From the NCBI RefSeq assembly GCF_000015205.1, contig NC_008701.1, forward strand, positions 1,367,436-1,431,435: a stretch of DNA of 64,000 nt, read 5' to 3'. Positions 29,932 through 53,082 of this stretch are shown in pieces (the stretch's first letter is position 1; each line of letters opens with the position of its first letter). The position numbers were made by a program, and so were the translations under genes. The DNA comes from Pyrobaculum islandicum DSM 4184 (GTDB lineage: Archaea > Thermoproteota > Thermoprotei > Thermoproteales > Thermoproteaceae). The notes under the pieces were generated by a model. That model ran no database searches. It saw only the letters and a program-made list of their open reading frames with translations, and was not told the origin of the DNA.

Positions 29932-30013
29932 GGCCTTGTATGTGGATGGGCTGAAATATCTGTTGGTTATGGAAGGCGCATGGGGGCAGGCCAAAAGTTT
30001 TACAAGACAAACC

Positions 30014-30039
30014 CACGCGTCGTCGTTGAGAGACGCGTG
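30014..30039. repeat. 8-bp hairpin upstream of tnpB
   Basis: CACGCGTC (30014-30021) and GACGCGTG (30032-30039) form a perfect inverted repeat around a 10-nt loop. It is about 80 nt upstream of the tnpB ATG at 29931, where IS605-group elements carry a left-end hairpin. Confidence 0.45.
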
Positions 30040-30249
30040 CCGGCCATGTTGCTAATCTTCGCCGCCACAAGAACAACTGTTGCCATAAGCAATGTATTGA
30101 TACCCGCCGGCGTCATACGCCGCCGTTGCCACCCCTCGCGTTGTTCATACCAGTGCCGATAATTGCAATGTTGGCGGCGCTTATGGTGAAAACCGCCGTA
30201 AACTCGTTTTTAACCCATCCACACCTCTAAACAATGCAACCACACACCA

Positions 30250-30318
30250 CTTTCAACTCCCTTGGCTCACCTGCCTGACGTCGTTGCTGTCAGGCAGGTG
30301 AGTCGGGAGAGCTGAAAG
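30250..30318. repeat. Long hairpin between the two tnpB genes
   Basis: The core is CTCACCTGCCTGAC (30266-30279) against GTCAGGCAGGTGAG (30289-30302), 14 perfect base pairs around a 9-nt loop. The stem extends outward imperfectly: CTTTCAACTCCC pairs with GGGAGAGCTGAAAG. The whole structure covers about 69 nt and ends 40 nt before the ATG of the second tnpB. It is probably the left-end transposase site of that element; a transcript-based hairpin is the alternative. Confidence 0.65.
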
Positions 30319-30358
30319 AATGTTTCAAAATTTTTTCTCCCCCACGCCAGGCATACAC

Positions 30359-31105
30359 ATGAACCAAGCATACAGGACGTTGAAGATCAGAATCCCATGG
30401 CGGTTGGTCGAGGAACGCCCCGACGTCCTTGATCTCGTCACGAGGATGCACTTGGCCGTTGAGGAGTACGTTAAAACGTTATTGAAGGAAGTCACAGGAC
30501 AGGAGGAGTCCAGACTCGCGCCGGAGGAGCTTGACCGTCTCCTCGCACCGGACAGGCGGGAGTTGCCACACAGGATTATCGAGGAGGTGTTCCCCAAGTA
30601 CGGTCTTGGGAGAGCTCTTGTGAGATATGCCAAGTTCCTCTGGCACGATACAGTGTTCCAACAGGCAATTCCGTTGAGCACCCAACTTAGGGTTGAAAAC
30701 GAGAGAGACATGAGCAGAGCCGTCTTCGTCGACTTAAAGAGCGGTGTCGTCAGAGTGCGGAAGACCGGCATACCGCCTTTCGCCGTCAAGCTGAAAAAGA
30801 GCAACGTCACTTGGATAAGGGAGAGACTACAGGAGGGCGCTAAATTGAAGTTGGCACTCCTAGGCATAGAAAGGCGGAGGGGCGAGGAGCCGGCCTATGA
30901 CAAGTTGTATGTTGCCCGCGCCGTCGCCAGAGAGGTGGCAAAGGCCATAGACAATCCCAGGTACAACGGCGACGTCGTCCCCGGCCTAGCCTACAAAATC
31001 GTAGCCACATTCGCAAGACACCTCTACCCCCTCGCCAAGGCCTACGTCGAGAGGCAGCATCTGAAACGCACTACGGATCGCCCACAGCCCCCAAAATCTT
31101 CATAG
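30359..31105 (+). pseudogene. tnpB: Truncated tnpB, N-terminal half
   Basis: From ATG 30359 the protein closely follows the first ~190 residues of the minus-strand TnpB (PWRLVEERPDVLDLVTRMHL, SGVVRVRKTGIPPFAVKLKK). At AVAREV, just before RuvC-I, it departs. The last ~55 residues (NPRYNGDVVPGLAYKIVATF and so on) are unrelated, so the nuclease domain is missing. The tail overlaps the converging HEPN gene. This is a deletion or recombination product, probably inactive. The foreign tail may be a scrap of another gene. Confidence 0.8.
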
Positions 31106-35734: not shown

Positions 35735-35948
35735 TACAAACACAAAAACACCCCCAGACAAATAAAAAACCACAAAAAACACATCCCACAACAACACAAC
35801 ACACAACCCACAAAAACCCAAAAACCAATAATACACAAAAAACACAAAACAACGACAAGGAAAAACAGACACAACACAGACAAAACAACCCAAAAAACAC
35901 AGCAAAAACACTGACACAAAAACAAGAAACTCTAATTACACACCAAGA
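35735..35948. repeat. A/C-only low-complexity tract
   Basis: About 210 nt in which the plus strand is almost entirely A and C, with runs such as CAAAAACACCCCCAGACAAA and ACAACACAACACACAACCCA. No proper repeat unit is seen. The minus-strand frames through it encode only Phe/Val/Cys-rich nonsense. It separates the upstream palindrome from the gene beside the CRISPR leader. Confidence 0.7.
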
Positions 35949-35956
35949 AAAACTCC

Positions 35957-36331
35957 CTAGCCGCCGTCTAGTATCTTTTTGGCGGCGCTTGGCCAGTACA
36001 TTGCGAGGGCGGTGGCGGCGTACTCAATGGCTATTGCCGCCTCCCAGGCGCGTATCTTCCAACGCGGCGAGTCCCGGCAGCGGCTGGCGACGTAGTAGGC
36101 CTTCCTGAGGGCGTCCACCAACGCAGCCACGAGTTGCCTAACGGGGAGGGGCCTCGGGACGAGCCGCCTAACCCTCACGGCGACGCCAAGAAGATCGTCC
36201 ACAGAGCCGAGGTAGACAGTGTCCCGAGGGCGCCAACTACGCTTCAGATAAAGCCGCCTGCCCAAAAGCCACAGGTACCCCACGAGAGGCCCAACCCTCA
36301 CACGGCCGAAGTAGAGATACACACCAGCCAC
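35957..36331 (-). CDS. Uncharacterised protein next to the CRISPR leader
   Basis: A 124-residue basic protein starting at GTG 36331 (MAGVYLYFGRVRVGPLVG). Helical parts LVAALVDALRKAYYVASRC and AWEAAIAIEYAATALAMYW dominate the second half. It resembles the helical PaREP/HEPN-type proteins in feel, but I cannot assign it. It is transcribed away from array 1. Its promoter lies inside the CRISPR leader, and its first ~8 codons are duplicated beside the other leader at about 46858-46880. Confidence 0.6.
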   Translation of the reverse strand: MAGVYLYFGRVRVGPLVGYLWLLGRRLYLKRSWRPRDTVYLGSVDDLLGVAVRVRRLVPRPLPVRQLVAALVDALRKAYYVASRCRDSPRWKIRAWEAAIAIEYAATALAMYWPSAAKKILDGG

Positions 36332-36621
36332 GAAACCACCCCATTAAAACATTCCCATATATGTCAGTAAAGGATGTAATATACTTTAGACAAGGGGCTA
36401 GACAGCCAAACGCGAAGAATGGCGCTGGGTTACGCAGTCTCTAAGGCGTGTGTATGATGGTAAAGGCGAAGAATGGCGCACGCCGGAACCCAGACAGGAG
36501 AATGTGTGAATGTAAAGGGGCGTTTGAAAGCGACCCCCGAGGGAACAAAAAACCACGAAAAAACTTAAAAACCCAAAAGATCCATAGACACAAGCCCCAG
36601 AAATCAAAAGATAGTAGAAAC
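36309..36621 (+). repeat. Inverted repeat, left copy: CRISPR leader 1 and first repeat
   Basis: Closely matches the reverse complement of 46568-46880 over about 310 bp. It covers the start of the neighbouring gene, the whole leader (36332-36596) and the first CRISPR repeat. Inside it, GCGAAGAATGGCGC occurs twice, at 36412-36425 and 36466-36479. A TATA-like ACTTAAAAAC lies about 30 nt before the first repeat and should drive array transcription on the plus strand. Confidence 0.85.
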
Positions 36622-36757
36622 CAGAACACGTCTGGGAATATCATGATGTCCTCCAGTTCCCAACCAGAAATCAAAAGATAGTAGAAACTCAAAAAAGACG
36701 TGCTTGTCAGAGTACCCAACTATCCCCCTCCTCCAGAAATCAAAAGATAGTAGAAAC
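36597..36757 (+). CRISPR. CRISPR array 1: three repeats
   Basis: Repeat CCAGAAATCAAAAGATAGTAGAAAC (25 nt; split here as CCAGAAATCAAAAG + ATAGTAGAAAC) at 36597-36621, 36664-36688 and 36733-36757, all identical. Spacers are 42 and 44 nt. The leader is on the low-coordinate side, so transcription is rightward, toward the cas genes. The end GTAGAAAC resembles the 8-nt 5' handle of mature crRNAs. The array is very short, which implies low adaptation activity or recent reset. Confidence 0.95.
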
Positions 36758-36940
36758 ATCATGTGCATAATCCACCTTAAGTTTGTCTTTGTTGTCAGAA
36801 TAGTAGAACTGTGCGGTGGCAGTTTCTCAATTGGTGGTGGTTTAGCGCGGGGTGGTGTGTGGTTGTGCGTTGGGGGTGTTGGGCGTTTTTGTGTTGTGGG
36901 GTTGGGTGTATTGTTTTTATATGTGTTTCTTTGTTTGTAT

Positions 36941-37758
36941 ATGCGGGTTTGGTTTAGGGGGGTGCATAGGCTGCTGGATTCTTCGCTTCATTTTCGGGAT
37001 CTGAGGGGGAGGAACGTCTTGCTTAATGTGGCTAGGTGGCTTGTGGCCGCGGCTTGTGGCGGCCGGGCCCACGTTCATGTTGACTGTGGGCGGGAGCCGC
37101 CGGGGGAGCTCCTCAGGGCTGTGTCGTACCTCATATATCCCGCGAGGCTGGAGCCGGGCGTGCCGTTTGACGGCTCGCCGGCGGAGGGTGGCGTATGTTC
37201 TCTCTGCGGCAGGGGGCCGGCGGCTGTGTTGACTGGAGGCCTGAGCTGTTTTCCGACGTGAAGGTGCTGGATTTCCCCTGCTATGCGGCTAGGTTGCTGG
37301 GGGAGAAGGCTAACAAGAAGGCCCTCCTCTTCGCCGTGGCCAACCGGCGCTGGGCGCGCAGGCTGGGGGGGAGGGTGGTCGGCGTCTACGGGGGGCTGGA
37401 GCTCGTGGAGGTGAAGGACGACATCCGCGACGCGGCGCTCCTGTGTTGGGAGTGCGCGTGCGCGGGGGTGGTGGCTGCGGCTGGGGAGAAAGAGGAGGGG
37501 CTGTCCTCCGAGGTGGAAAAGGAGGCTCGGTTCTACGTCGGAAGGGTTGGGGATCTCTTAAGGGACAACATAGGGCGGTGGGACATCTATGCTGTGCCTG
37601 GCGTCAGGAAGGAGTTCTTGAGATGGCCCGCGGTGGGCGACGACTCGTCCGTCCTTGCCTATCTCCCAGCTAAGGCGTTTCTGTCTCCAGTGGCTGAACC
37701 GTATCTTTACGCCTTATTGCAAGCAGAACTAAGTCTAGGTACGGCTTGGCTACACTGA
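36941..37758 (+). pseudogene. Zinc-finger protein beside cas10, one frameshift
   Basis: From ATG 36941, preceded by TTTTTATAT at the correct distance, the frame reads VHRLLDSSLHFRDLRGRNVL and reaches CSLCGRGPAAVLTGG. It then continues in another frame as PELFSDVKVLDFPCYAARLL, with LLCWECAC later, and ends at 37758. Adding one G near 37233 joins the halves into about 272 residues with paired C-x-x-C motifs. The 3' end overlaps cas10 by 89 nt tail to tail. Zn-finger large-subunit-type Cas proteins such as Cas8a/Csa4 are a possibility; I cannot confirm it. Confidence 0.5.
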
Positions 37759-40700
37759 GCAGTTTCAGTGCCTTATCCAGCTCTCTAGAACTGGGGTACA
37801 GCAAGATGGGGTCTTCACCGATGCCGAGCCGCTTCATTGTATCTATCAGCTTTTCCAGCTCGTCTTTTCTCCTTACACACACGTAGGCGTAATAAACCTT
37901 GAGCTGTAGACTTCGCTCACGTAGCCTGGTCGCCGGTGCCCTATGTTGCTTGATCTCAAGCGTCTCATATCTAGCCGCCAGCGAGGACAGAATATAGAGC
38001 TCCCTAGTCCACTCCTCAAGTTTCACGTAGGGCATCGTAAATGGATCCAACACCTTCTCAAAGATTTGGAAGTTCCAAGCGCTATATAGGTTCTTGAGAT
38101 CAACCTGTGCGCCTCCGCACTCAGGAGGCTCAAGCGCGACGACGTCTGATTCTATAGCGCCAGCTGCTCTATACCTTTTCGCATGTAGCTCCAAGCCCTC
38201 TACTGCCCTTCTGTATAGATATAGGAGAGGCACGTGGTCGCGGTCTATAGCGGCAGATAGGGAAAGCGTAAGTGGGTAGAGAGCGGCCCTAAGAGAGCGG
38301 TGTAGCTTGGCAAGGTAGTAGAGCAGATGGCTCCACTTGCCATACAAGCTCAAGTCGTCCCCCCCTGCGTACAGGGGAATCACGTCGAGGAGCCTAAATC
38401 TCTTCGCGTTTTCGTTACGCCTCTTCACTTCATCGACAACGGTGAGGTACCCCTTGCCCATCAATACCATGTTGACGTAGTCCGACAGGGTAACCAACCT
38501 AGACGGAGAGAATGCATACATAAGCCTTACGTCGCCAAATCTATCAACATCCATCTTGGCAAGGCCAATTATCTCATATTCGTCGATCGTTACCAACTCG
38601 TATCTCCCCCTTTCCGCGTTGTAGACGGCGGGGTGATAATATGCAAAAAAGTCGAACCCAATCTCCACATCTGCAGAGCCCAGCAGATCCCTAATCTTTG
38701 CACTAAGCTCCTCAAATGCGTTCTTGACGTCAACGTCTTCTGCCTTGGTCAGAATAAAGGCGTGCGGGGCATTCACAATCTTTATGTCAATATACGTCCC
38801 CCAACCCCTCCTACCATCGGTAGCGGGGTTCCCATTCTCTCTAAGGAGCTGCGTAAGTTCATCAAGCAATTTGGCGATGCCCCTATAGGCGGCGGCCAAC
38901 TGTTTTGGATCTCTTACGTCGTAGACAGGGCTGTTTCTCACGGACAGCAATAAATAGACCGACCTAACCGGCAACAGAGGGACAACGGCCACCTCAAACT
39001 CATCTACGTAGCCGTGAAGACACGTGTGACGACAGTTGCCGAACAGCTTACTGCTCAATTTCTTTACAAAACTTTCGACGTCATCCTCGGAGGCGCTTCC
39101 GAACAGGTGAATCCCGATAACTCCAGCGAGACCACGACCAGCAGAGCCGGCAGCTAGACTCATATGGGTAACACCGGCTAACACATCGCCAACCTGGAGC
39201 TTGCCGGGGCCCGCAACGCCGTCGAAATAATCACTATCCTCCTCGCCCACCTTGACGGAGAATTTATCGCCGTCAAGAATCGCCTCCTTAGTCAACGAAT
39301 CATAGCCACCTACCTTCTTCCACCAACTCTCAGACCTCCTCAGAACTGCCTTCTTTTTGGCAAGCTCCCTCTCAAGCTCCGTCAAAACACTCATTATGCC
39401 ATAGGTTCTCCTCCCGCGAGTTTTTCCCCCCTCCATGGCCCCGTAAAAACTAAGCCATGCCTTAAGGTATGTTATATGATTAAGGCCACGGGGTTTGGTA
39501 TATGCGACAATGAATCGAATGTCGCTACCCAAGAAGTCAGAAAGCTTCGCTGCCACCTCCTCAAGGGTATTCAACCTCTCCCTGTCCTCCTTTGAAATGC
39601 TGTCTTTTCTCCTCCTTTTCTTTTTTGAGTTGTCGTCCTCCATCCTCCTTACCGGCAGAATCAGATCAACAGCACCGCCCTTTTCCACAAGCACATTTGT
39701 CTTTGGTACCTCGAAAAGATGAAGGGCATACTTCGTTAAGGCGTCGAGCGCCAGAATAACGATGAGACTACGCCCCCTCAAGATGCGGGATGCGGCGGCC
39801 GGCTCTCTCGGCGAGGCCACAAACCTCTGGACCCCCATCGTGTCTATAGTGAGCATAATAAACGAGTCTCTCATTTCACACACTGTACTAAACGCCGCCG
39901 TCAGTCTGCTGTGGCTATAGAGACTGATGTCCGGAACCAAAGCCGCCCAATGCGCAGATGGCACAAACATCGTAGTCGCCTTGAGGATGTTAAGTACCGT
40001 ATTTATCAATCCATAGGAAACCCTTCTATTATAGACATTTCCAGCCCAGACAAGCATAGAAATCAGCCTCCTAGCCACCTCAGGATAGTCACTTCCATTA
40101 AGGGCCTCCTTGTAAGTCATACCTCTGAGGTTGATAATAAACTCCGGATCAAGAGGCTTCACAGGAACCCAGATCTCTTTATCAAATAAATAACATAATA
40201 ATTCTTTATATTTTTCTAAGAATTTATCTTTATTAGACTTATTAAGATCTTTTAAGATCTCAAAGATATCTTTCAGGTTTTCTATGAATTCCTTTCTTCC
40301 CATTTCGTAGTTCCAGGACTTCTGTGAACTACATAGACCAACGCTGTTCAAATACTTCGTTTTCAAGAGCATCCACTGGGGTAGCAACATAGGAGTAGTT
40401 TCACCGTACTTAAAGCCAGATTCTTGCAGTTGCTTTTTCAATTCATCCATTACATCCCCAGACCCCACTCTTTCCATCGCGGCTTTCCGATCGGCCTTCT
40501 TAGTGCAATCCTTTTCAGGTTTTATTCTACTTGCCTCCTCTGGCGGAAGTAGCAAGTTCAATATTAGTTGTGTGAACTCTGTATGTGCAACAGATCTCTT
40601 TCCGATTTTACTTGCTGTATCATGTAAATTTCTAAGTTCAATATTTTGTGATTTTTCAATTTCTTTTATGTTTTCCAATAGCTTGTCTCTGTCTGCTAAG

Positions 40701-40768
40701 CCAGCTCTCCTTATTGGCTTACCTACGTCGTGAAGGAGCGCCCCCAATACCTTTTTTAGGTCAGGCAT
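37670..40768 (-). CDS. cas10: Cas10, type III signature protein (Csm1-like)
   Basis: A 1032-residue protein. The N-terminal HD domain starts ALLHDVGKP (H13-D14), so the DNase site is kept. A second palm domain has KMDVDRFGD near residue 739 and YAGGDDLSLYG near 802; the intact GGDD predicts cyclic oligoadenylate synthesis. The C-terminus is helical. It is the scaffold that binds the crRNA-Csm complex and is activated by target RNA. Here it is the last gene of the operon, overlapping csm5 by 13 nt, whereas cas10 usually comes first. Confidence 0.9.
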   Translation of the reverse strand: MPDLKKVLGALLHDVGKPIRRAGLADRDKLLENIKEIEKSQNIELRNLHDTASKIGKRSVAHTEFTQLILNLLLPPEEASRIKPEKDCTKKADRKAAMERVGSGDVMDELKKQLQESGFKYGETTPMLLPQWMLLKTKYLNSVGLCSSQKSWNYEMGRKEFIENLKDIFEILKDLNKSNKDKFLEKYKELLCYLFDKEIWVPVKPLDPEFIINLRGMTYKEALNGSDYPEVARRLISMLVWAGNVYNRRVSYGLINTVLNILKATTMFVPSAHWAALVPDISLYSHSRLTAAFSTVCEMRDSFIMLTIDTMGVQRFVASPREPAAASRILRGRSLIVILALDALTKYALHLFEVPKTNVLVEKGGAVDLILPVRRMEDDNSKKKRRRKDSISKEDRERLNTLEEVAAKLSDFLGSDIRFIVAYTKPRGLNHITYLKAWLSFYGAMEGGKTRGRRTYGIMSVLTELERELAKKKAVLRRSESWWKKVGGYDSLTKEAILDGDKFSVKVGEEDSDYFDGVAGPGKLQVGDVLAGVTHMSLAAGSAGRGLAGVIGIHLFGSASEDDVESFVKKLSSKLFGNCRHTCLHGYVDEFEVAVVPLLPVRSVYLLLSVRNSPVYDVRDPKQLAAAYRGIAKLLDELTQLLRENGNPATDGRRGWGTYIDIKIVNAPHAFILTKAEDVDVKNAFEELSAKIRDLLGSADVEIGFDFFAYYHPAVYNAERGRYELVTIDEYEIIGLAKMDVDRFGDVRLMYAFSPSRLVTLSDYVNMVLMGKGYLTVVDEVKRRNENAKRFRLLDVIPLYAGGDDLSLYGKWSHLLYYLAKLHRSLRAALYPLTLSLSAAIDRDHVPLLYLYRRAVEGLELHAKRYRAAGAIESDVVALEPPECGGAQVDLKNLYSAWNFQIFEKVLDPFTMPYVKLEEWTRELYILSSLAARYETLEIKQHRAPATRLRERSLQLKVYYAYVCVRRKDELEKLIDTMKRLGIGEDPILLYPSSRELDKALKLLSVAKPYLDLVLLAIRRKDTVQPLETETP

Positions 40769-41784
40769 ATTTCACACCAGCCAACTCCCAACTGTCTTCC
40801 ATCTATTTCCACAAGCTTTAGGGTATTAAAGTCATGCCTCTTGTGAAAATGTTTCTCCAACAGCATCTCGTAGACATCCGGCATCTTCTCCCTTATGATT
40901 GATATAACCGTCTTAGAGTATATTCCGGTCATCCGCCCCATCCTCGCGATTACACACGCCTCGTCTGCTTTGCAGTATTTACTCCTCCACTTCTCCAGCG
41001 CCTCAACATAGGGGGCCAATTTCTTATGTCTCTTAGCCTGCTCTATTTCGTTTTCCAGCAACCTACAGCCGAACTGCCTAAGCGCCTCTCGGATGTGGTC
41101 TACGCCGAGATGAGGCAACTTTTCCAACAGCTTGATTGCGTTGGCAAGCTCTTCCGTTTGGCCTCTGACTTTAGGTCTAAAGGGCGTCAACTCTATGCCG
41201 TATCTCAGCTCGCCCCCCACTAAGGCAACCGCCGACACCTTTGCCACAGAGGAAAGGGAGGGCAACCTTTTCACGTGGATATCTACTATCGCGGTCTCCG
41301 CCTTGGCTTTAGTCTCCCAAATCCTCAAGCTTTGCATTACATCAACTCTTGGGCTTCGCATCCTCATAAGCCTATCCTCAAGTAGCGACCCGATCGGCCT
41401 CCGGTCTTGTTTCACCGCCTGTTCTATGAGCCTCATAGCGTCTTGCCGCTCGCCTAGCCATTTGTACAAGAGGGCGGTGCGGATGTAGCCCTTCAGCGTG
41501 GAGGCGGGGACGTACCACGGGCTGATGTCGTAAACTAATTTGCTCGACAAATCCGAGCGGAGCTTCAAGACACGGCTACATTTCACCTTGTCCGCGTATC
41601 TATCCAACGGAGCTAGGTCATCTGCCACTTTCTCGATAACCTCGGTGGGCAGTTGGTTTACGTCTACTATACACGCATCGCCATCCTTCACCACTATGTC
41701 GTATCCCACCACCAACACATCTCCGCTCCACACATGGACAGGCGTCAGGGGAGAGAGCTTAATCTCCATGCCTCTAAATGCCAT
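40756..41784 (-). CDS. csm5: Csm5-like RAMP protein
   Basis: A 342-residue RAMP/Cas7-type protein with LSPLTPVHVWSGDVLVVGYD at the start. YVPASTLKGYIRTALLYKWL and a C-terminal LGVGWCEICL turn follow. The order 'L-T-P-V-H, then S-T-L-K-G-x-I-R' is typical of Csm5, which caps the crRNA 3' end of the complex. It overlaps csm4 by 11 nt and cas10 by 13 nt. Confidence 0.75.
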   Translation of the reverse strand: MAFRGMEIKLSPLTPVHVWSGDVLVVGYDIVVKDGDACIVDVNQLPTEVIEKVADDLAPLDRYADKVKCSRVLKLRSDLSSKLVYDISPWYVPASTLKGYIRTALLYKWLGERQDAMRLIEQAVKQDRRPIGSLLEDRLMRMRSPRVDVMQSLRIWETKAKAETAIVDIHVKRLPSLSSVAKVSAVALVGGELRYGIELTPFRPKVRGQTEELANAIKLLEKLPHLGVDHIREALRQFGCRLLENEIEQAKRHKKLAPYVEALEKWRSKYCKADEACVIARMGRMTGIYSKTVISIIREKMPDVYEMLLEKHFHKRHDFNTLKLVEIDGRQLGVGWCEICLT

Positions 41785-42727
41785 ACGTCAGCGGGTTAAA
41801 AACCACCGTTGCGCTTGACTCGGCCTTCTCCTCCCTCCACTCATCTCTGACGTAGCTCAAGACAACGCCATCGCACTTTTCCTTAGCTTTGACAACGCCT
41901 CCGGGCGATATGGCGCGTATCCGCGGTAGCATATAGCTGTTGTAGGGAGGCCCCGAGTACCCCTCAATCCACACCTCTCTCCCATAGGCCTTTTCTATAC
42001 AGCCAAGGAAGGGGTATGAGCCCAGGAGGTACCTCCACCCCCCGTCGAGGCCCTCGAGACGGTATGTGCTGTCCAACCTCTCCACACTGAACCTTCCCCA
42101 CCCCCTACTCCTCATGCCCCCCAGCCCCACCTCCCCCAACACCCCCAGGAGGGCATCTGCGTTATCGAGCCCCTCTATTGCGAGCCAGAGCTTAGTCCTA
42201 GGTCTCACCCACTCTACTATAAAGACGTCTGAAGCCGGGGTTGCCCGATCCAGTCTATTCCTGTACTCAACAACCACCTCGTAGAGTTCTCCGCTTACCT
42301 CGATATGCACGTCTTCGTCGTATACTACGGGGCCGGTTCGTTTCAATTCCAGCGTCTTCCTCTTTCCCAGATTCCTCACCTTAACCTTATCATCTGTGGT
42401 CTCTTTGACAAAGCAATCTTCGCTACCTGAGCACACCCTAAGCACCTTCTCGACAGCTCCCAGCGTAGCCCACAGATACCTCACCTCTTTGGACTTAGAC
42501 GGTATATGGGGAAACGGGACAAGGGGCAGATTTTCTCCCACGACAGGAAAAAGACCCGTCGCCCTAACCTGACCCTCTTCGATTTTCTTCGCGGCGTCTA
42601 GATCGCCGATCATATGCGCCACATAGATAAGCGCCCTGAGAATCGACGTGTGATCCACAACCGGAGTAACCTCCCTCCACCCAACGTGATAACCCTTAAA
42701 GAACTCCACCAAGAAAAAGTCAGTCAT
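41774..42727 (-). CDS. csm4: Csm4-like RAMP protein (Cas5 group)
   Basis: A 317-residue RAMP protein with FKGYHVGWREVTPVVDHTSI at the start, GLFPVVGENLPLVPFPHIPS and a glycine-rich loop GLGGMRSRGWGRF in the second half. Csm4 binds the 5' handle of the crRNA and contacts Cas10. Overlaps are 4 nt with csm3 and 11 nt with csm5, so the whole series is translationally coupled. Confidence 0.8.
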   Translation of the reverse strand: MTDFFLVEFFKGYHVGWREVTPVVDHTSILRALIYVAHMIGDLDAAKKIEEGQVRATGLFPVVGENLPLVPFPHIPSKSKEVRYLWATLGAVEKVLRVCSGSEDCFVKETTDDKVKVRNLGKRKTLELKRTGPVVYDEDVHIEVSGELYEVVVEYRNRLDRATPASDVFIVEWVRPRTKLWLAIEGLDNADALLGVLGEVGLGGMRSRGWGRFSVERLDSTYRLEGLDGGWRYLLGSYPFLGCIEKAYGREVWIEGYSGPPYNSYMLPRIRAISPGGVVKAKEKCDGVVLSYVRDEWREEKAESSATVVFNPLTYGI

Positions 42728-43713
42728 AAACTACCTCGCTCAAAGACGCGCATAACAGCTTTAACTACTTTTTCTTCATCGTCGATACGATCCGTCTTAA
42801 TAGGCTCCCCCTCCTTTTTTATCTTGCACTCACTTGGTTTTTGTTTCGTATCCTTTACCTCGCACTCACTTTTTAGTATCACAACATTAAAGTTTTTGAA
42901 GGCAACACGGCCGTATCCGCGGCTTCCCGAGGCGCCTAGATACGTGTTTTCAATCAATTCTATGCCGGCTTGCAGTGTCTGGAGATACTTTTTGACCATG
43001 TCTCTGTCGTTGTCGAACAGCAACATCCTGATGTACCCATAGAAAACTACGCCAGGCTTAACTCTGACAACGTTCCGCGGGTCAGCCGTAGCTGTCACTC
43101 TATCAATCCTATTCTCGGATTTGTCCTCTAAGAAGTCAGAAATTCCTACGAACCTGCCCCCCAGCTTATTAATCGTTTCACACGTTGGGAAGAAGTCGTC
43201 GAAAAGAAGACGTGTAATGCCGGCGTTTTTCCACGCGTTTTCAAATTTTTTACGGATATCCTCTTTTTTTACTTCTTTTATTTTTTCATCTACCTGTTTA
43301 TAGCTGGTCGCCGCCCATCCAAAGAGCTCGTCAATTAGGCACCGGTTTTCTAGATCATCCAGAAAGTCTTCTAGCTGCATTGCGCTGAGCGACCTGACGT
43401 GTTGCCAGATTTTGTTATCTGTCGTGTAGAGAGGTAGCCCGTGGGCAAGCTCAAGTAGCGACCTCATCCTACCCTTGAGACTAGAGCCAGGTATGTACGG
43501 AACCTCTAACTCAACCTCCTCGCTCCCCTCGACGTTACATGCATCTTGGTTAAATCTGTATTTTTTCCTTGTCACCATTGGGTATATGTCGGCGCCGCCG
43601 ACTCTGTAGCTCTGGGCGTGTATTGGCGTTCTGATAAGAAGACCGCTCAACGTCTCGATCTCTGCGTAGATAAGCACTATACCCTGAAGTTTCCTTATTA
43701 TCTTACTCTGCAT
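42724..43713 (-). CDS. csm3: Csm3-like RAMP ribonuclease (Cas7 group)
   Basis: A 329-residue protein with VPYIPGSSLKGRMRSLLELA near residue 75 and GASGSRGYGRVAF near residue 275, the Cas7-type RNA-binding motif and glycine loop. GGAD near D42 aligns with the catalytic Asp region that cuts target RNA every 6 nt in Csm3. An extra lysine/glutamate-rich stretch (120-165) and a charged tail make it longer than most Csm3 (about 220-250 residues). Confidence 0.8.
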   Translation of the reverse strand: MQSKIIRKLQGIVLIYAEIETLSGLLIRTPIHAQSYRVGGADIYPMVTRKKYRFNQDACNVEGSEEVELEVPYIPGSSLKGRMRSLLELAHGLPLYTTDNKIWQHVRSLSAMQLEDFLDDLENRCLIDELFGWAATSYKQVDEKIKEVKKEDIRKKFENAWKNAGITRLLFDDFFPTCETINKLGGRFVGISDFLEDKSENRIDRVTATADPRNVVRVKPGVVFYGYIRMLLFDNDRDMVKKYLQTLQAGIELIENTYLGASGSRGYGRVAFKNFNVVILKSECEVKDTKQKPSECKIKKEGEPIKTDRIDDEEKVVKAVMRVFERGSL

Positions 43714-44185
43714 ATTGATACACTACTACGGCCACCGCGTCAATTATAGTACGAGCGTTATCCAGAGCGCGCTTCGTAGCTACTTTATCCCACGCGCCCT
43801 GCTTTGCAGATTCTGCATTTTGTGACGTACGCTTTATTATGCTAATGAGTTCGTCCACAAGTGAAAGGAGATAGTTACCAAGTGCATGAGAAATTTGCTT
43901 TCTTCCCATTTGATACTTAATAAGTATCTTCACCTTTACCAAGTCCATGATATATCTATTTGAAGATACACTGAGTTTCTCTATATTCTCCATAGCTGAA
44001 TCTATGATAGATGCAAGACGTTCATGTAATCTCCTATATGCAGTTTTCGTAGTATTACCTATAAAATTTTTTGATTGATCTTTATCTATATTTAAAATTT
44101 GTATAATGATATCCTGAACTTTATCGTCATTTGTGAGGTCGGGCACTTGTAATTGAAAAGTTCCCGAAATACTTCTTCCCACCAT
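43703..44185 (-). CDS. csm2: Csm2-like small subunit
   Basis: A helical protein of about 160 residues. I place the start at the ATG at 44185 (MVGRSISGTFQLQVPDL), since the 55 residues before it are foreign and a minus-strand AATTTAAAATTT lies 20-29 nt upstream. Helices YIMDLVKVKILIKYQMGRKQ and LGNYLLSLVDELISIIKRT fit the Csm2/Cas11 small subunit that lines the target RNA. It is the first gene of the operon and overlaps csm3 by 11 nt. Confidence 0.7.
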   Translation of the reverse strand: MVGRSISGTFQLQVPDLTNDDKVQDIIIQILNIDKDQSKNFIGNTTKTAYRRLHERLASIIDSAMENIEKLSVSSNRYIMDLVKVKILIKYQMGRKQISHALGNYLLSLVDELISIIKRTSQNAESAKQGAWDKVATKRALDNARTIIDAVAVVVYQYAE

Positions 44186-44216
44186 TATGTTTATAACAGT
44201 GGAAAATTTAAAATTT
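44186..44216. promoter_or_regulatory. 31-bp overlapping divergent promoter of the csm operon
   Basis: Between the csm2 ATG (44185, minus) and the GTG at 44217 (plus) are 31 bp. TTTATAA (44190-44196) is 24 nt before the GTG. AATTTAAAATTT, centred near 44209, is 24 nt before csm2. The two promoters interlock as in the RHH pair at 8645-8674, so csm transcription and the divergent pair likely compete. Confidence 0.55.
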
Positions 44217-44528
44217 GTGCTACTTAAAACGCCGGAAGCTGAAGGAAGATCTGCAACCACAGCGCAATTTCTTTGGCATAAGGCGCCCGCCGCTTCTCTA
44301 GATCGGTGGTTAAAAGTCGCCATTGATAGCACATCCATGGACGAGTCCACCCCAGGTACGCTTGGATCAATTACTTACTGGAGTGGAAGTGGCTTGAGGA
44401 ATGTCAAGGCAGACGGCATGAGGGTAGTGCCATATCCAATAGATGCCGTAATAACTGGCTTAGGTGATATACCTGTTTACAATGGAGGAATGAGGGTTCT
44501 GAAGCCGATACACTGGGCTGAGTCGTGA
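44217..44528 (+). CDS. Uncharacterised protein divergent from csm2
   Basis: About 103 residues. The GTG at 44217 is preferred to the ATG at 44187 because of the TATA box at 44190-44196. The sequence looks like a single alpha/beta domain (AQFLWHKAPAASLDRWLKVA, then DSTSMDESTPGTLGSITYWS and DAVITGLGDIPVYNGGMRVL). No family recognised. It overlaps the next gene by 4 nt, so the pair forms a small operon facing away from csm2. Confidence 0.6.
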   Translation: MLLKTPEAEGRSATTAQFLWHKAPAASLDRWLKVAIDSTSMDESTPGTLGSITYWSGSGLRNVKADGMRVVPYPIDAVITGLGDIPVYNGGMRVLKPIHWAES

Positions 44529-44965
44529 CGATCAGGGCAGCGGTCAGGGTGATATCGGTAGGTGGCGGCTCAGCTACCGGCCCGTGCCAGGTGGTGGCGT
44601 TGCCGCCGGGAGAGATATGGCTCAGATGCGACTCTGTGGACGAGCTACTGCTCCACCTCGACGCCCTCCTGGAGGCAGGTCACGTCCCCATGGTCATAGC
44701 CTTCCTAGACGGTAGAAGGCTTCCAGTAACTGCAGTGTCGTCAGACATACTGGAGACACACGGAACATACGACGAAGAGCTCCAGCAAATCATCAAGGTA
44801 AAATTCTACACCCCGCCCTCGAGCTGGATCCCACACTTCCAACGCTCTAAGATGCGGCTAAATCCTCAAAAAAAGACGGCCGTGATACATCTAACTACGC
44901 CGATAAGACTTACACAGCTCTACGACTTAGGCTTGAGACTGCTCCAGCCCAAGAAAGCGCCATAG
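44525..44965 (+). CDS. Uncharacterised protein, second gene of the pair beside csm2
   Basis: A 146-residue alpha/beta protein starting at 44525 within the upstream stop. Landmarks are VRVISVGGGSATGPCQVVA, WLRCDSVDELLLHLDALLEA and AVIHLTTPIRLTQLYDLGLR. I do not recognise it and see no catalytic motif. Because it shares a promoter region with the csm operon it may regulate or assist the type III system. That is inferred only from position. Confidence 0.6.
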   Translation: MTIRAAVRVISVGGGSATGPCQVVALPPGEIWLRCDSVDELLLHLDALLEAGHVPMVIAFLDGRRLPVTAVSSDILETHGTYDEELQQIIKVKFYTPPSSWIPHFQRSKMRLNPQKKTAVIHLTTPIRLTQLYDLGLRLLQPKKAP

Positions 44966-45262
44966 CCACGCCACGTGAGCGCGGGGGACAAAAACGGAAA
45001 TCACGGGGCACACGAGGGCGCACCTTTAAGCCCCGTCGGCGGCGGAACTGGAGGATAGCCGACCCGTATCACTGCGCCGGAACACGCCAGCACATAACCC
45101 AACACCAGATGCAAGCAGACCGGCCAGCCCATGAGATGTACATAGTCCAACGGCCCAAGGCCCCGCGATGCGTCAAGCAGTCACAAACCCCCAGCGCCGT
45201 AACCGCAGGTAGCCCCCATCACTAGCCCCAAGTTGCGCACGCAAGTAAAGGAAGCCGACTAA
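44966..45262. other. Gap without recognised gene
   Basis: About 300 bp, A/C-rich on the plus strand. No coding frame or RNA motif that I can support. Confidence 0.4.
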
Positions 45263-46265
45263 ATGGCGGGGAAAAAGAGGAGTCCCGCCGACGTAGTGGT
45301 GGACACCCTCGTGACGCGCAGCGGCGTGGAGACTGGAGGCTTCAGACTCCACCTCGTCTACGATGAGGCCGGCCGTCAGTGGTACCTCCACATTCACTTC
45401 GAGCGGTACTGGGGCGAGGCGCACGAGCTCTTGTCTATGCTATCGCTCGCCTTCCCCCGCGTCCACACCTCCTTCGGGGAGGGGACCAAGAGGCTGCACG
45501 AGTTCAAGACGGGGCTTGCGCACCTGCTCCTCACGAGGGCAGTGGTGGAGGGCGAGGAGCCTGAGGAGTGCGGCAGGGCGGATCCTCTGGCGCTGCTCCC
45601 AGTACACGCCGGGGCGACCAGGTTCGCCTACTCGTGGGCTAGCCGCGTCTACCCACAGATACCTGCGAGACAAGGGGGCTGGCGTGCTGGCGTTTACCAC
45701 CGCCCTCATTGCGGAGTACGTCGAGCGGCTGGACGTACTCATGCCGGAGCTGAGAGAGACCGTGAAGCACCTCGACGCGGAGCTCAGCTCGGCCATCTGG
45801 CTTCAAGAGGGGGGCGCCGGAAACACGTGTAGGTGGTTCTTCGGGGCGTACGACGAGGCGTGCAGGAGCCTAAGCCGCTCCCCCGACGTCGACAGCTGTG
45901 AAGACCTCAAGAAGAAGGGGGTTAAGCTCGACGGCTGCCTGGTGCTGGTGGCCACCGAGACGTTCTCCCCGTATCTGTTCGGCGCGATCCCAGCCGACGA
46001 GTACCTGGTGGCGTACACCCCCAACTTCTACAGACAGGTGAAGTTCGCCCTAGACATATACAGGGCCTTCGGCGACGGCAAGGCGGTGAGGCGCGCCTTA
46101 GTCAGCAGAGACAACCCATACATAAGCTACCTATCGCTCAGGAAGGCCCTAGAAGAGAGGGGAGGCCAAGACCACTGCTACTACATACCAAAGCTCTCCG
46201 GGACAGGCGCCATATACCTAGCACTGAAAAAGCTAGAACGCGAAGGCCTACTCAAAAAACCCTAA
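45263..46265 (+). pseudogene. Uncharacterised protein beside array 2, one frameshift
   Basis: Starts at ATG 45263 (MAGKKRSPADVVVDTLVTRS) and runs in frame to FAYSWASRVY. It continues in another frame as HRYLRDKGAGVLAFTTALIA, with DGCLVLVATETFSPYLFGA, ending GTGAIYLALKKLEREGLLKK. Removing one C from the CCC at about 45655-45657 restores Y-H-R-Y and gives some 333 residues. The last segment resembles a winged-helix wing. Function unknown; its position between csm and array 2 suggests a CRISPR accessory or regulator. Confidence 0.5.
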
Positions 46266-46294
46266 AACCCCCAAGCCGAGTTGGATATGATCAT

Positions 46295-46592
46295 GTTTCT
46301 ACTATGCTTGATTTCTGAGTGGCAAACCCCCTCCGCTTGCTTGGGCCATATGACAGATCCGGTTTCTACTATCTTTTGATTTCTGGCCGCGATGGCCGGC
46401 TTCGCCCTCCTCCAGGCCTGGAAGGCGAGGTTTCTACTATCTTTTGATTTCTGGAGGGCGTAATCGTCTCTCTCGAACAGATGGCCTTTATGACGTCGTT
46501 TCTACTATCTTTTGATTTCTGACGCGGTCTTCAACGCGGTTCAGTCCGGCCAACTCCCAGCCTTGCTGTTTCTACTATCTTTTGATTTCTGG
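46295..46592 (-). CRISPR. CRISPR array 2: five repeats
   Basis: Repeats, read on the minus strand as in array 1, lie at 46568-46592, 46498-46522, 46430-46454, 46362-46386 and 46295-46319. The 46498 copy has one end change, and the distal 46295 copy has several, as is usual for a terminal repeat. Spacers are 45, 43, 43 and 42 nt. The leader is on the high-coordinate side, so transcription is leftward, toward the cas genes and toward array 1. Confidence 0.95.
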
Positions 46593-46880
46593 GGCTCGTA
46601 TTTTCGGATCTTTTGGGTTTTTAAGTTTTTTCATGGTTTTTTGTTAGTCCGGCGGTCGCTTTCAAACGCCCCTTTACATTCATACATTCCTCTGTCTGGG
46701 TTCCGGCGTGCGCCGTTCTTCGCCTTACGATCGCAACCCCGCCTCAGAGAGGGCGTGGTAAAGCGCCGTTCTTCGCCTTCGGCCTTCTAAACCATTGTCT
46801 AAAGTATATTGTGTCCTTTACCGACATATATTGGAATGTTTTAATGGGGTGGTTTCGTGGCTGGTGTGTATCTCTACTTT
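46568..46880 (-). repeat. Inverted repeat, right copy: CRISPR leader 2 and first repeat
   Basis: Mirror of 36309-36621. It contains the first repeat of array 2, the leader (46593-46857) with GCGAAGAACGGCGC twice (46710-46723 and 46763-46776, minus strand), and a broken copy of the start of the 36331 gene (reading AGVYLYF before it stops). The match extends past the leader into coding sequence, so it arose by duplication rather than convergence. Confidence 0.85.
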
Positions 46881-46931
46881 CTACTTCGTGCTTAATCTCG
46901 ATCCAGATAACTTATGCGTAAGCGTTGATGA

Positions 46932-48026: not shown

Positions 48027-50429
48027 ATGGTCATCAACGACTTGGAGAAGTGCGTTGAGAGGGAGGACTTTGGCGAGTTTAAGCTTGAGGAGACGTGTTT
48101 GTACCAGGTCTTGAGAAATAGTAAAAAGAGCTACTACGCCGATGTGCTTAAGAGCGTTTTCGACGAGGTTGCCGATGCCCTCAACTCAATCAGTAGGTAC
48201 TTCCCCAACTACACCAGGCACGACACATCGCACTGTCTCCACGTGATTAGGAATTATGGGCTACTTCTCACGCTCGATGGGCTTAGGAGGTTGAGCGAGG
48301 AGGAGCTCCTCATCCTCGGGCTTTCGGCAATCCTACACGACATCGGGATGCTACCACAGAGCGAGGAGGAAGTAGAAACACTCACCAAAGGTGGTGCTGA
48401 GGGGAGGAGGGTTAGGGAGGAGATTAGGAAAAAACACCACATTAGATCAGCGAGGGCTATACTGGGCTTGGCGAGCGTGTACTGGCAAAGCGGCTCAAGC
48501 GCAGGAGCGAGTGAGCTGAACATCGGCAAAGTGCTTGATGATGCGTTGAATAGGTTAGACACATCCACAGCTCGCTACGTTAAGTACTTAACAGCCTTCG
48601 TCTCGGCTAAGCATAGGGAGAGCGGGGATAAGCTCTTTGAGAGCATTGACTCAGACAGAATCGAGCTGAGCGAAGATCCGGATTTACAAAAGAAGCTAAT
48701 GGAAGCCCTTCCTAGGATGAGCGGTGGTGAGATTTCATGGGCCACAGGCAAAGCCAGGCCCTGGCTCCTAGCCCTATTACTGGCTTTGGCCGATGAGTTC
48801 GACATTCGCAACACAAGGAGCTTTATAGCAATCGAGGACATGGGGCTTGAGTCCCTCGTACAAGCCTACATTGGATACTTACTAAGCAATGAGAGCGATA
48901 AGCAATCACCAATCCATCACATACTCAATCAATCACTCAACAAACCACGCCGTGAGGAAACCACCATTAGAATCGCCGGTTCATTAAGCGCGGAGAGCAG
49001 CGGAGTCGAAATCGAGGATGTTCTACGCTTAATGCAGAGAGTCGCCGAGAAAATCGACAACACACTAAACGTGGTGATGCACGGCCTGCATTATAAAGGC
49101 TCAAGCATTAAGGAGGTGCTCAGGAGCTTACCAGCTAGGCTTGTAATAAACATAGACGTTACGGTTGGAGATAAAATCTATAGATTATCATCAGACATGA
49201 GGATTGAGGCTGATCCGCACCTCTTTAAAGAGCTCCTCTCCAAGTACCTCTATGGTAGTGATGTTATGTATGTGCTTAGGGAGCTTGTGAGCAATGGTAT
49301 CGATGCTTGTAAGGGGAGGTTTTGGGAGTTTTGGTGGAGGAGTGGTAGGCTGCCTGAGCCTCGTGAGTACGAGCCCAAGCTCTGGATTAGGCTTTACGAG
49401 GAGGGTGATCACTACGTGCTTGAGGTTGGCGACAATGGCTCTGGCATGGATGAGTTCGAGATAAGGAACTACCTGCTCAAGGCTGGCGCGAGCATGTACA
49501 GGGATAGGCTTGGCGAGATAAAGCCAATCTCGATGCACGGCATAGGCTTCCTATCAGTCTGGATGGTGGCCGACAAGGTCGTTGTCGAGACAACACCGGT
49601 GAATGGAGAGCTTAGCTACGTCGTAGAGCTCATAAGCCCATCAGCACCAGCACTAATAACGCACAAACCAAGGCAAGGCAGCGAGCCAGGCACAAAAGTC
49701 AAAGCCTACATAAGCAGGGACAAGAGAGAAATCGTAAACGAGATAGACCGAATACTCAGGTGGGTGGCTGAGAGTGGTCTATGGCCTATCGGCATAGCCC
49801 ACACATACATACCAAAACCACCAAACCACGAATACGACAGCAACCACTACGTGAGGATTTACGTAAAGCCACTAGGCCAAAGCGAGGAAAAGGAGATTAG
49901 CAAGGAAAAACTTACGCCAGAGATAATTGGGCGCTTTGATGAAGTCAATGAGGGAATAAAGCTACCAGCATACTTAGTTAAGGCGGCGAGAGAAGAAATG
50001 CCTATTGAATTATTATTGATGAAATTGATGAAGATGAAATTATATCATATAGCGCCATCATTTCGCGGATTAATCATGTTTGAGACACCTATTAAAGGCC
50101 TGCGTTTTGAGCCGGAGGTTTTTATCGATTTTATCGAGCTACCCCAAAAGTGGTCTTTAGATCTAAAGAAGACCAAAATAACGTGGCGAGAAGACAAGCC
50201 CAAGCTCTATCAAACCATAGCTAGAGCTATCGATGCATTCCTCACCGGATGTGAGGGGCGTAAAGAAATATGCGGTGAGAATTATCACGTAATTCTTGAT
50301 AGCGAGCTCCTACATGAGTGGTACGTAGTCGGTAGAAAGAGCTATGAGGAGTTCTTCAGCAACATCATTAAAAGTGATTTAACAAAGTGTAATAAAATAA
50401 AAATCTTATATAAAAATCTTTATGTTTAA
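48027..50429 (+). CDS. HD hydrolase fused to a GHKL (Hsp90-like) ATPase
   Basis: An 800-residue protein. The N-terminal HD domain has RHDTSHCLHVIRN, then LSAILHDIGMLPQ (H-D near residue 104) and later LALADEFDIRNTR, which completes the H-HD-D set. The second half is a GHKL ATPase: N-box RELVSNGIDACKGR near 418, G1 VGDNGSGMDEFEIR near 468 and G2 HGIGFLSVWM near 505. Such HD/Hsp90-like fusions are known from prokaryotic conflict systems. Codon use is AT-richer than in flanking genes. It overlaps the next gene by 8 nt. Its ligand is unknown. Confidence 0.85.
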   Translation: MVINDLEKCVEREDFGEFKLEETCLYQVLRNSKKSYYADVLKSVFDEVADALNSISRYFPNYTRHDTSHCLHVIRNYGLLLTLDGLRRLSEEELLILGLSAILHDIGMLPQSEEEVETLTKGGAEGRRVREEIRKKHHIRSARAILGLASVYWQSGSSAGASELNIGKVLDDALNRLDTSTARYVKYLTAFVSAKHRESGDKLFESIDSDRIELSEDPDLQKKLMEALPRMSGGEISWATGKARPWLLALLLALADEFDIRNTRSFIAIEDMGLESLVQAYIGYLLSNESDKQSPIHHILNQSLNKPRREETTIRIAGSLSAESSGVEIEDVLRLMQRVAEKIDNTLNVVMHGLHYKGSSIKEVLRSLPARLVINIDVTVGDKIYRLSSDMRIEADPHLFKELLSKYLYGSDVMYVLRELVSNGIDACKGRFWEFWWRSGRLPEPREYEPKLWIRLYEEGDHYVLEVGDNGSGMDEFEIRNYLLKAGASMYRDRLGEIKPISMHGIGFLSVWMVADKVVVETTPVNGELSYVVELISPSAPALITHKPRQGSEPGTKVKAYISRDKREIVNEIDRILRWVAESGLWPIGIAHTYIPKPPNHEYDSNHYVRIYVKPLGQSEEKEISKEKLTPEIIGRFDEVNEGIKLPAYLVKAAREEMPIELLLMKLMKMKLYHIAPSFRGLIMFETPIKGLRFEPEVFIDFIELPQKWSLDLKKTKITWREDKPKLYQTIARAIDAFLTGCEGRKEICGENYHVILDSELLHEWYVVGRKSYEEFFSNIIKSDLTKCNKIKILYKNLYV

Positions 50430-51877: not shown

Positions 51878-52432
51878 GGTGCTATTGCTTGGTATGTCTT
51901 TGATATTGCGTATGCAAGCCCTGCGGCTATTGCTGTTGTTAGGGCTAGTACTATTGCGGTGTGTATGCAGAAGCTTTGTAGTGTGGCTGCTGTGTCGAAG
52001 CATCCTGTGAGTGTGTTTCCAAGTGTTGGCAGTGCTTTTGCTATGTCCTGTGGTATTGAGCATTTTATGTTCGGCATCACGGTGTTCTCTACGTACTTCG
52101 CGAGTGCCACTAGTGTTATTGGGTATGTGAGCGCTATTGAAACTACGGCTGAGCCTATTGCTCTTGTTTTGTCTAGGATTAGCAGTGTTGCTCCGAGTCC
52201 CGCTATACGTTACTGCGTAGGTCATTACCTCTGTCAGTACTTTGAGTGTGTATGCTTCGAAGAGTGCTGTGTTTGCTACCCATTGGTAGTACTGTGTTGC
52301 TTGCATTAGGTATATGCCCAGTGGTGCTGTTACTGGTATTGCCTGTGCTATGAGCATGGCTGCGTATATCGACTTCATGCCGTCTGCCACTCTGTGCCAG
52401 AGTGTGTTGAATGTCTCAGTTGCTTTTAGCAA
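51874..52432 (-). pseudogene. Membrane protein, one frameshift
   Basis: The first frame (TTG at 52432) reads FNTLWHRVADGMKSIYAAML, then IPVTAPLGIYLMQATQYYQW and LFEAYTLKVLTEVMTYAVT. The second frame takes over near 52205 with AGLGATLLILDKTRAIGSAV, ALTYPITLVALAKYVEN and the helix IAAGLAYAISKTYQAIAP. Together they give about four membrane helices. It overlaps the CARF-like gene upstream and the small membrane gene downstream, so three genes form one operon. Confidence 0.55.
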
Positions 52433-53082
52433 ATCCCCTCGTGAACGGCTCTCACAATTTTTTCCTGGGGGCTTGTATAGTTTGGCTCGCTGATGTCTAT
52501 TACGTCGACTGTGGCGAGCCTCTCAAGCCCCCTTCTGAGGTGCTCGATGATTTTCGTCGGTGATGTGCCTGGTGGAACTCTCATGTCAAGCTCTGGCTCC
52601 GCGTAGTCAAGTACTACGTTTATCTTAGAGCCTCCTCTTATGACACCTGAGCCGATTTCGTGGGCTTTAGTCATCCTCATGTACACCTCGGCTGAGTTCT
52701 TAATGGCCGTGGATAGCTCGCTTGGGGTTTCCAACCTCTTGTTTAACTCCTCGATTAGGATTCTTCTTCTGGCGTTTGCGTTGGAGCGTGTGAGTAGGTT
52801 GACGTAGAGTATTGGCAGGTCTATCTGGACTATCCTCTCGGCGTGTTCTGCCGTGGTGTAGACTGCCTCTATTTTGGTGTTCCACAGCCTGACTGCCAGT
52901 AGCGCGGCGGTGTAGAGGCAGAGGGAGAGCGCTCTTACCTCTCCGCCTATGTCGAGGCAGTACTCGCCGTCTCTTTCGCTGAACAGCTCGGCGGCGTCGC
53001 CGACGCACTTCCAGAAGTCTTCGGGGTTTAGGGGGGCCTCCTCCAGCGCCGCCCTCCTCGCGTAGAGCCGCACTTCCTCCAC
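52426..53082 (-). CDS. CARF-like/winged-helix regulator or sensor, N-terminus truncated
   Basis: A 218-residue protein from GTG 53082. CLDIGGEVRALSLCLYTAAL followed by IEAVYTTAEHAERIVQIDLP matches the ligand-binding half of CARF domains as in Csa3. The segment RRRILIEELNKRLETPSELS, then VYMRMTKAHEIGSG, looks like a winged helix. The usual first strand (KIVLVTG) is found just upstream in another frame, near 53110-53125, so the true N-terminus is lost or a one-base shift near 53098 breaks it. CARF domains bind cyclic oligoadenylates, which the Cas10 here could make. Confidence 0.5.
   Translation of the reverse strand: MEEVRLYARRAALEEAPLNPEDFWKCVGDAAELFSERDGEYCLDIGGEVRALSLCLYTAALLAVRLWNTKIEAVYTTAEHAERIVQIDLPILYVNLLTRSNANARRRILIEELNKRLETPSELSTAIKNSAEVYMRMTKAHEIGSGVIRGGSKINVVLDYAEPELDMRVPPGTSPTKIIEHLRRGLERLATVDVIDISEPNYTSPQEKIVRAVHEGIC

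Follow-up and report, generated by a model that had tools for sequence, protein, structure and literature searches.

Dispersed copies of a CRISPR leader module and its linked small gene as the probable source of the inverted repeat around the csm locus of Pyrobaculum islandicum

Introduction

In the leaders of type I-E and I-F arrays of clustered regularly interspaced short palindromic repeats (CRISPR) that depend on integration host factor (IHF), elements at a fixed distance from the first repeat position an accessory factor that bends the DNA. The role of IHF in leaders has been summarised elsewhere (PMC9456107). The leaders of locus 1 and locus 2 in Sulfolobus islandicus REY15A are mirrored and identical, and a leader-distal element is bound by the accessory factor Csa3a (PMC9456107). 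Here we analyse a pair of mirrored leaders on either side of the csm genes of Pyrobaculum islandicum, together with a small divergent gene, termed X, that adjoins one of them. The window under study, the whole stretch of 64,000 nucleotides that was analysed, covers positions 1,367,436–1,431,435 of the single 1,826,402-bp contig; unless stated otherwise, coordinates refer to this window. Because mirrored leaders are known from S. islandicus REY15A, the geometry in itself is not new.

Exactly these arrays and csm genes have been described as Crispr3, Crispr4 and Pisl_1541–1545, with expression of CRISPR RNA (crRNA) demonstrated (Bernick et al. 2012, PMC3396285). In Table A1 of that work, Crispr3 (+, 1404032–1404192) and Crispr4 (−, 1413797–1414026) flank Pisl_1541–1545, which correspond to cas10, csm5, csm4, csm3 and csm2. 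The paper also reports 1213 and 1010 crRNA reads from the two arrays, respectively. The promoter AAAAACTTAAAAA and the lack of cas1 and cas2 in P. islandicum were noted there as well. In that paper, whose Table A1 has no entry between PAE0077 and PAE0079, we found no description of X, of its duplication together with the leader, of its position behind cas4 or of the elements at −185, −131 and −91. A search of open-licence papers, which gives only weak evidence of absence, likewise returned nothing on PAE0078/X and its neighbourhood. No description of the linked gene X or of the phased leader elements was met in the literature searched.

Copies of the leader module

A self-BLAST of the window aligns positions 36309–36621 with the reverse complement of 46568–46879 at 86.3% identity over 315 columns (E = 3.5e-93). 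This similarity is far above chance, and the inverted repeat of the original prediction is thus present. Its left arm (36309–36621, + strand; copy I) consists of leader I and the first repeat of the left array, Crispr3, and its right arm (46568–46880, − strand; copy II) of leader II and the first repeat of the right array, Crispr4. The arrays (36597–36757 and 46362–46592) point toward each other and toward the csm genes, with the leaders outside, as had been described. Inward, the inverted repeat ends with the first CRISPR repeat, and the spacers of the two arrays differ. At the outer end the match runs past the leader and stops about 8 codons inside the gene starting at 36331, which is X; the right side keeps only a broken stub, with first codons followed by a stop. 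Similarity ending exactly at the leader borders, as expected from convergence, is therefore not what is seen, since the homology enters the gene. An assembly artefact, another worry raised in the original prediction, is unlikely because the published annotation places both arrays here and reports crRNA reads for both (PMC3396285).

BLAST searches and MAFFT alignments reveal five copies of the 313-bp arm in the P. islandicum genome, each ending at the first repeat of one of its five arrays. Copy I is 89% identical to copy III (contig position 1759744, about 356 kb away), 87% to copy IV (1505), 86% to its mirror, copy II, and 82% to copy V (38578). In copies I, III, IV and V the homology extends over an entire divergent frame of 121 codons, gene X, as far as its stop codon. 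Copy II alone has no complete X, which is lost after about 8 codons. Judged from the extent of homology, the duplicated unit is gene X plus the shared intergenic leader plus the first repeat, and the inverted repeat stops on its outer side where X was lost from copy II, not at the edge of that unit. Arrays would have multiplied by copying of the whole module, and gene conversion among the dispersed copies would then have reshuffled their leaders. An origin of the inverted repeat from the dispersed module is very probable, and on balance the flanking of csm by two oppositely oriented copies of this module is likely to be fortuitous. The mirrored repeat itself would then be ordinary, a CRISPR leader present in multiple copies.

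A gene linked to CRISPR leaders

The distribution of X and of its leader was surveyed in 81 genomes of the class (19 Thermoproteaceae and 62 others), with leaders collected both by pattern and from fetched loci. By comparison with Table A1 of PMC3396285, G001 is P. aerophilum, G002 P. calidifontis, G004 P. neutrophilum and G005 P. oguniense. X is present in 10 of the 19 Thermoproteaceae genomes and in none of the 62 others. All 17 intact X genes adjoin CRISPR arrays. Thirteen of them are divergent from the leader, with less than 400 bp between the start of X and the first repeat; two (in G006 and G007) lie at the distal end of arrays; and the remaining two (P. aerophilum, L094, and G003, L090) are the last gene of a csa1-cas1-cas2-cas4-X operon, which is itself divergent from the leader. 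X is thus in an operon with cas1-cas2-cas4 in P. aerophilum and G003, but not in P. islandicum, which has no Cas1. The same operon occurs in P. oguniense (L095), where X is truncated. In P. neutrophilum, one leader has the cas operon in place of X, while a neighbouring leader has X. X is also found beside a leader in a third genus (G018). At adaptation operons elsewhere in the surveyed genomes, located by the positions of Cas1, no X match was detected nearby. X is likely to be a genuine CRISPR-linked gene with a CRISPR function.

At leader I, X (35957–36331, − strand) is transcribed away from the leader and encodes 121 residues from the GTG at 36322, or 124 from the GTG at 36331. At leader II, the stub (46866–46895, + strand) retains the promoter and the first codons and reaches a stop after 9 codons. 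A TTTTAA box is located about 24–29 bp upstream of the fourth codon (GTG or ATG; 36322 at leader I) in the X copies of P. islandicum and P. neutrophilum, and because of this position the X mRNA is suggested to be leaderless. X matches no family in Pfam, NCBIfam or PADLOC; one weak PHROG and one weak DUF match, obtained for a few of the X proteins only, fall below a useful score. The predicted structure (AlphaFold, mean predicted local distance difference test score, pLDDT, of 83) consists of four strands followed by four helices, and fold searches with this model against PDB and viral libraries gave no meaningful match (best E values 0.94 and 0.064). The protein is strongly basic, with an isoelectric point of 10.2–11.5 and a net charge of +10 to +15. 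A guess from the C-terminal helices that X is a PaREP1/HEPN-type protein was rejected, as Pfam, NCBIfam, PADLOC and PHROG gave it no support. Nor does X appear to be a Csa3 regulator (CARF plus winged helix): there is no Csa3 or CARF match, and the model is a β-sheet plus helices.

Isolated broken fragments of X occur at four further places: L097 (G000:C1:395697–395913), L098 (G004:C1:1512067–1512180), L099 (G001:C1:861483–861688) and L087 (G006:C1:1904012–1904266). No array was found in the fetched flanks of these fragments, which are possibly traces of vanished CRISPR loci.

Phased elements in the leader

The leaders share a common layout: GCGAAGAAYGGCGC occurs twice, at approximately −185 and −131 from the first repeat (a spacing of about 54 bp), and is followed by ATGAATGTAAAG at −91 and, at −38, by the known promoter. 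In leader I (+ strand), elements A1 and A2 (both GCGAAGAATGGCGC) are found at 36412–36425 (−185) and 36466–36479 (−131), element B (GTGAATGTAAAG) at 36506–36517 (−91) and the promoter element described in PMC3396285 at 36559–36571 (−38). The corresponding positions in leader II (− strand) are 46763–46776 (A1, −184), 46710–46723 (A2, −131), 46672–46683 (B, here ATGAATGTAAAG, −91) and 46618–46630 (promoter, −38). The register is near base-exact across Pyrobaculum and Thermoproteus and is roughly kept in the third genus. The one type I leader of P. neutrophilum that was checked has none of these elements except the promoter.

When up to one mismatch is allowed, GCGAAGAAYGGCGC has 10 matches in the P. 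islandicum genome, all of them in leaders, two per leader and 53–55 bp apart. A strict pattern for the pair has 29 occurrences in 11 genomes, all of them Thermoproteaceae, and a reversed-pattern control gave none. The presence of X is associated with that of the motif pair (Fisher p = 2e-9 across the 81 genomes; p = 0.005 within the Thermoproteaceae).

As a small basic protein encoded next to the leader, X would act on it, modulating transcription of the array, integration of spacers, or both. That X acts on the leader is probable. Its role as the protein that binds the phased GCGAAGAAYGGCGC pair is a tentative assignment, and X is put forward here as a candidate binder. About as tentative is the full proposal: X would be an undescribed CRISPR-associated protein of the Thermoproteaceae that takes the place of IHF or Csa3, binding the GCGAAGAAYGGCGC pair and controlling transcription and/or integration at the leader, and that is kept in four copies, each beside its own leader, despite the loss of Cas1.

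Several observations weigh against the proposal. DNA binding by X is argued from its charge and location, and the fold model (pLDDT 83) matches nothing informative. The co-occurrence of X and the motif pair may just reflect a common array type and is no proof of interaction. Two genomes, G012 and G014, have the pair but no X, and several leaders of the same kind have no adjoining X; because X loci served as seeds for the leader survey, leaders with X are over-represented in it. In G015, which we take to be T. tenax, both copies of X are frame-broken (L084, 346128–346474; L085, 316478–316806). Finally, each of the 12 genomes that have the motif also has a Csa3-like gene or what is left of one, the gene being broken in several species.

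The breaks in the two G015 copies lie at nearly the same place, at about residue 82, with the remainder in another frame, as a result either of shared decay or of something odd.

In an alternative reading, the GCGAAGAAYGGCGC pair would be bound by a Csa3-like CARF protein and X would do something else. By analogy, it has a precedent in Csa3a, which binds positions −143 to −94 in Sulfolobus islandicus (PMC9456107), and the distribution of Csa3-like genes among the 12 genomes agrees with it; PAE0077 of P. aerophilum is an example of an intact one. However, the gene is broken in G006, G014 and G015 as well as in P. islandicum. There, the open reading frame (ORF) at 52426–53082 (− strand) sets in only near residue 40 of its P. 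aerophilum counterpart, so that the first ~39 residues are missing, and its C-terminal part is replaced by an M20 peptidase fragment, while 10 of 10 leader sites are intact. The reading of a Csa3-like protein as the sole binder of the pair is weakened by the broken state of its gene in P. islandicum, and the alternative as a whole is tentative. The ORF at 52426–53082 is itself a relic of a Csa3-like CARF gene that has lost its N-terminal part and is joined to a piece similar to an M20 peptidase dimerisation domain.

P. islandicum thus retains four intact copies of X and all leader sites, despite having no Cas1 and a broken Csa3-like gene. Either the losses of Cas1 and of the Csa3-like gene are recent, or X and its sites serve something beyond Cas1-dependent adaptation, such as transcription of the array. 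This combination makes the species helpful for separating a role in adaptation only from one in the transcription or maintenance of leaders.

Selection on X

Among the P. islandicum copies of X, the ratio of nonsynonymous to synonymous substitution (dN/dS) is 0.05–0.16, with differences mainly at third codon positions, and low ratios are also found within P. neutrophilum and between the two species. As judged from these substitution patterns, X is under purifying selection. This bears on a second alternative, by which X would be a passenger: the last gene of the adaptation operon, trapped by the leader after deletion of csa1-cas1-cas2-cas4 and duplicated only as part of a copied block. In two G003 copies a remnant of the end of cas4 directly precedes X, which is expected if the cas genes were deleted between the leader and X; the broken X genes of T. 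tenax and the truncated one of P. oguniense fit a passenger as well. Against it stand the strong purifying selection that acts on multiple X copies in both P. islandicum and P. neutrophilum, the conserved position of X's own promoter and the presence of X beside a leader in a third genus, and we consider a passenger unlikely.

Leader mosaicism

The identity between the two arms is uneven. A repeat search of the window gave 91% for the array-proximal half and 83% for the outer half, and by blocks copies I and II are 98% identical over 36309–36360, 69% over 36411–36462 and 92–93% over 36463–36540. The closest partners of the leader copies switch from block to block and across species. In nine leaders from P. 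islandicum and P. neutrophilum, neither the near-pair incompatibility test nor Sawyer's runs test produced the observed value in any of 2000 permutations. Trees of the two leader halves disagree: copies I and II group together in the proximal half (91/88, not significant) but not in the distal half, although forcing them into a clade there is not rejected (approximately unbiased test, p-AU 0.165). Gene conversion among dispersed copies, as read from these alignments, accounts for both the block pattern and the conflicting trees. In a tree of the X genes aimed at dating the copies, the four from P. islandicum fall together, but the support (62/99.9) is not significant.

These data also bear on the claim of the original prediction that one array end was copied in inverted form around csm. 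Under such a local duplication, the array end with X would have been copied across csm, X would later have been lost on the right, and the other three copies would be older or later. The tracts of 98% and 92–93% identity link copies I and II, as do the proximal-half grouping and two bases that they share and that are absent from eight other leaders; for these tracts, local gene conversion or a partly local origin is possible. Overall, however, copy I is nearer to copy III than to copy II, the I/II identity drops to 69% in the middle block, the distal-half tree has no I/II clade, and with mosaicism this strong, local conversion tracts would be a sufficient explanation. Owing to the five copies and the mosaic leaders, we set local inverted duplication as the sole cause aside as the main explanation and keep it as an improbable rival to the dispersed module.

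A functional inversion switch, in which recombination between the arms would flip the csm locus, is permitted by the geometry (two inverted 313-bp arms about 10 kb apart) but is rejected as very improbable: at 86% identity and with a longest identical run of 47 bp, the arms are too diverged for a dedicated switch, no recombinase gene was found among the scanned proteins between them, copies are equally present at three unrelated sites, flipping would leave both arrays and leaders essentially unchanged, the published orientation is the only one known, and no signs of csm inversion were found in this analysis.

The csm locus and its surroundings

The left array (Crispr3, 36597–36757, + strand) has 3 repeats and 2 spacers, and the right array (Crispr4, 46362–46592, − strand) 4 repeats and 3 spacers. 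Both have regular CCAGAAATCAAAAGATAGTAGAAAC repeats, unique spacers and the promoter AAAAACTTAAAAA upstream, and belong to the Pyrobaculum type III family. The genes between them, all on the − strand and assigned by profile matches and PMC3396285, make up a type III-A (Csm) set: cas10/csm1 (Pisl_1541, 37670–40768), csm5 (40756–41784), csm4 (41774–42727), csm3 (42724–43713) and csm2 (43703–44350), the last with a weak profile match. No match to PF01867 (Cas1) was found in the P. islandicum genome; adaptation genes of their own are common in, but not strictly defining for, III-A systems. cas2 is likewise absent (PMC3396285). A comparison with sister genomes, as had been suggested, recovered the leader and X in relatives but no ortholog of the csm arrangement beside these leaders; relatives of Csm3 are at most 49% identical and located elsewhere.

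Several further features were observed around the locus. A degenerate extra repeat is located at the distal end of the right array (about 46295–46318). The gene adjoining this array (45264–46265, + strand) is split into two overlapping frames of 189 and 300 residues, as if frame-shifted; the 300-residue ORF has no family match. Just outside leader II, 48027–50429 (+ strand) encodes a protein of 800 residues that combines an HD-CE domain with an HSP90-like ATPase domain. Gene X and the left array are flanked by strongly strand-biased, low-complexity sequences, A/C-rich on the left (35745–35935) and G/T-rich on the right (36835–36950). Another inverted repeat of 525 bp with 78% identity is present at 29402–30891 (29405–29925 against 30368–30888).

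Comparison with known systems

The X genes form a small family that, within a single family of archaea, is linked to CRISPR leaders and the cas1-cas2-cas4 operon, together with leader elements at fixed distances from the first repeat. For archaeal leader recognition without IHF, X and its leader sites offer a specific protein and a specific DNA to test. In S. islandicus REY15A the system is of type I-A and the factor is Csa3a (CARF plus winged helix-turn-helix), whereas here it would be X, and both the elements and their spacing differ. Moreover, neither Cas1 nor an intact Csa3-like protein is present in P. islandicum. The IHF-dependent leaders of type I-E and I-F systems resemble those of P. 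islandicum in having elements at fixed distances, but there is no IHF here. X, in turn, is not detectably similar to any known family.

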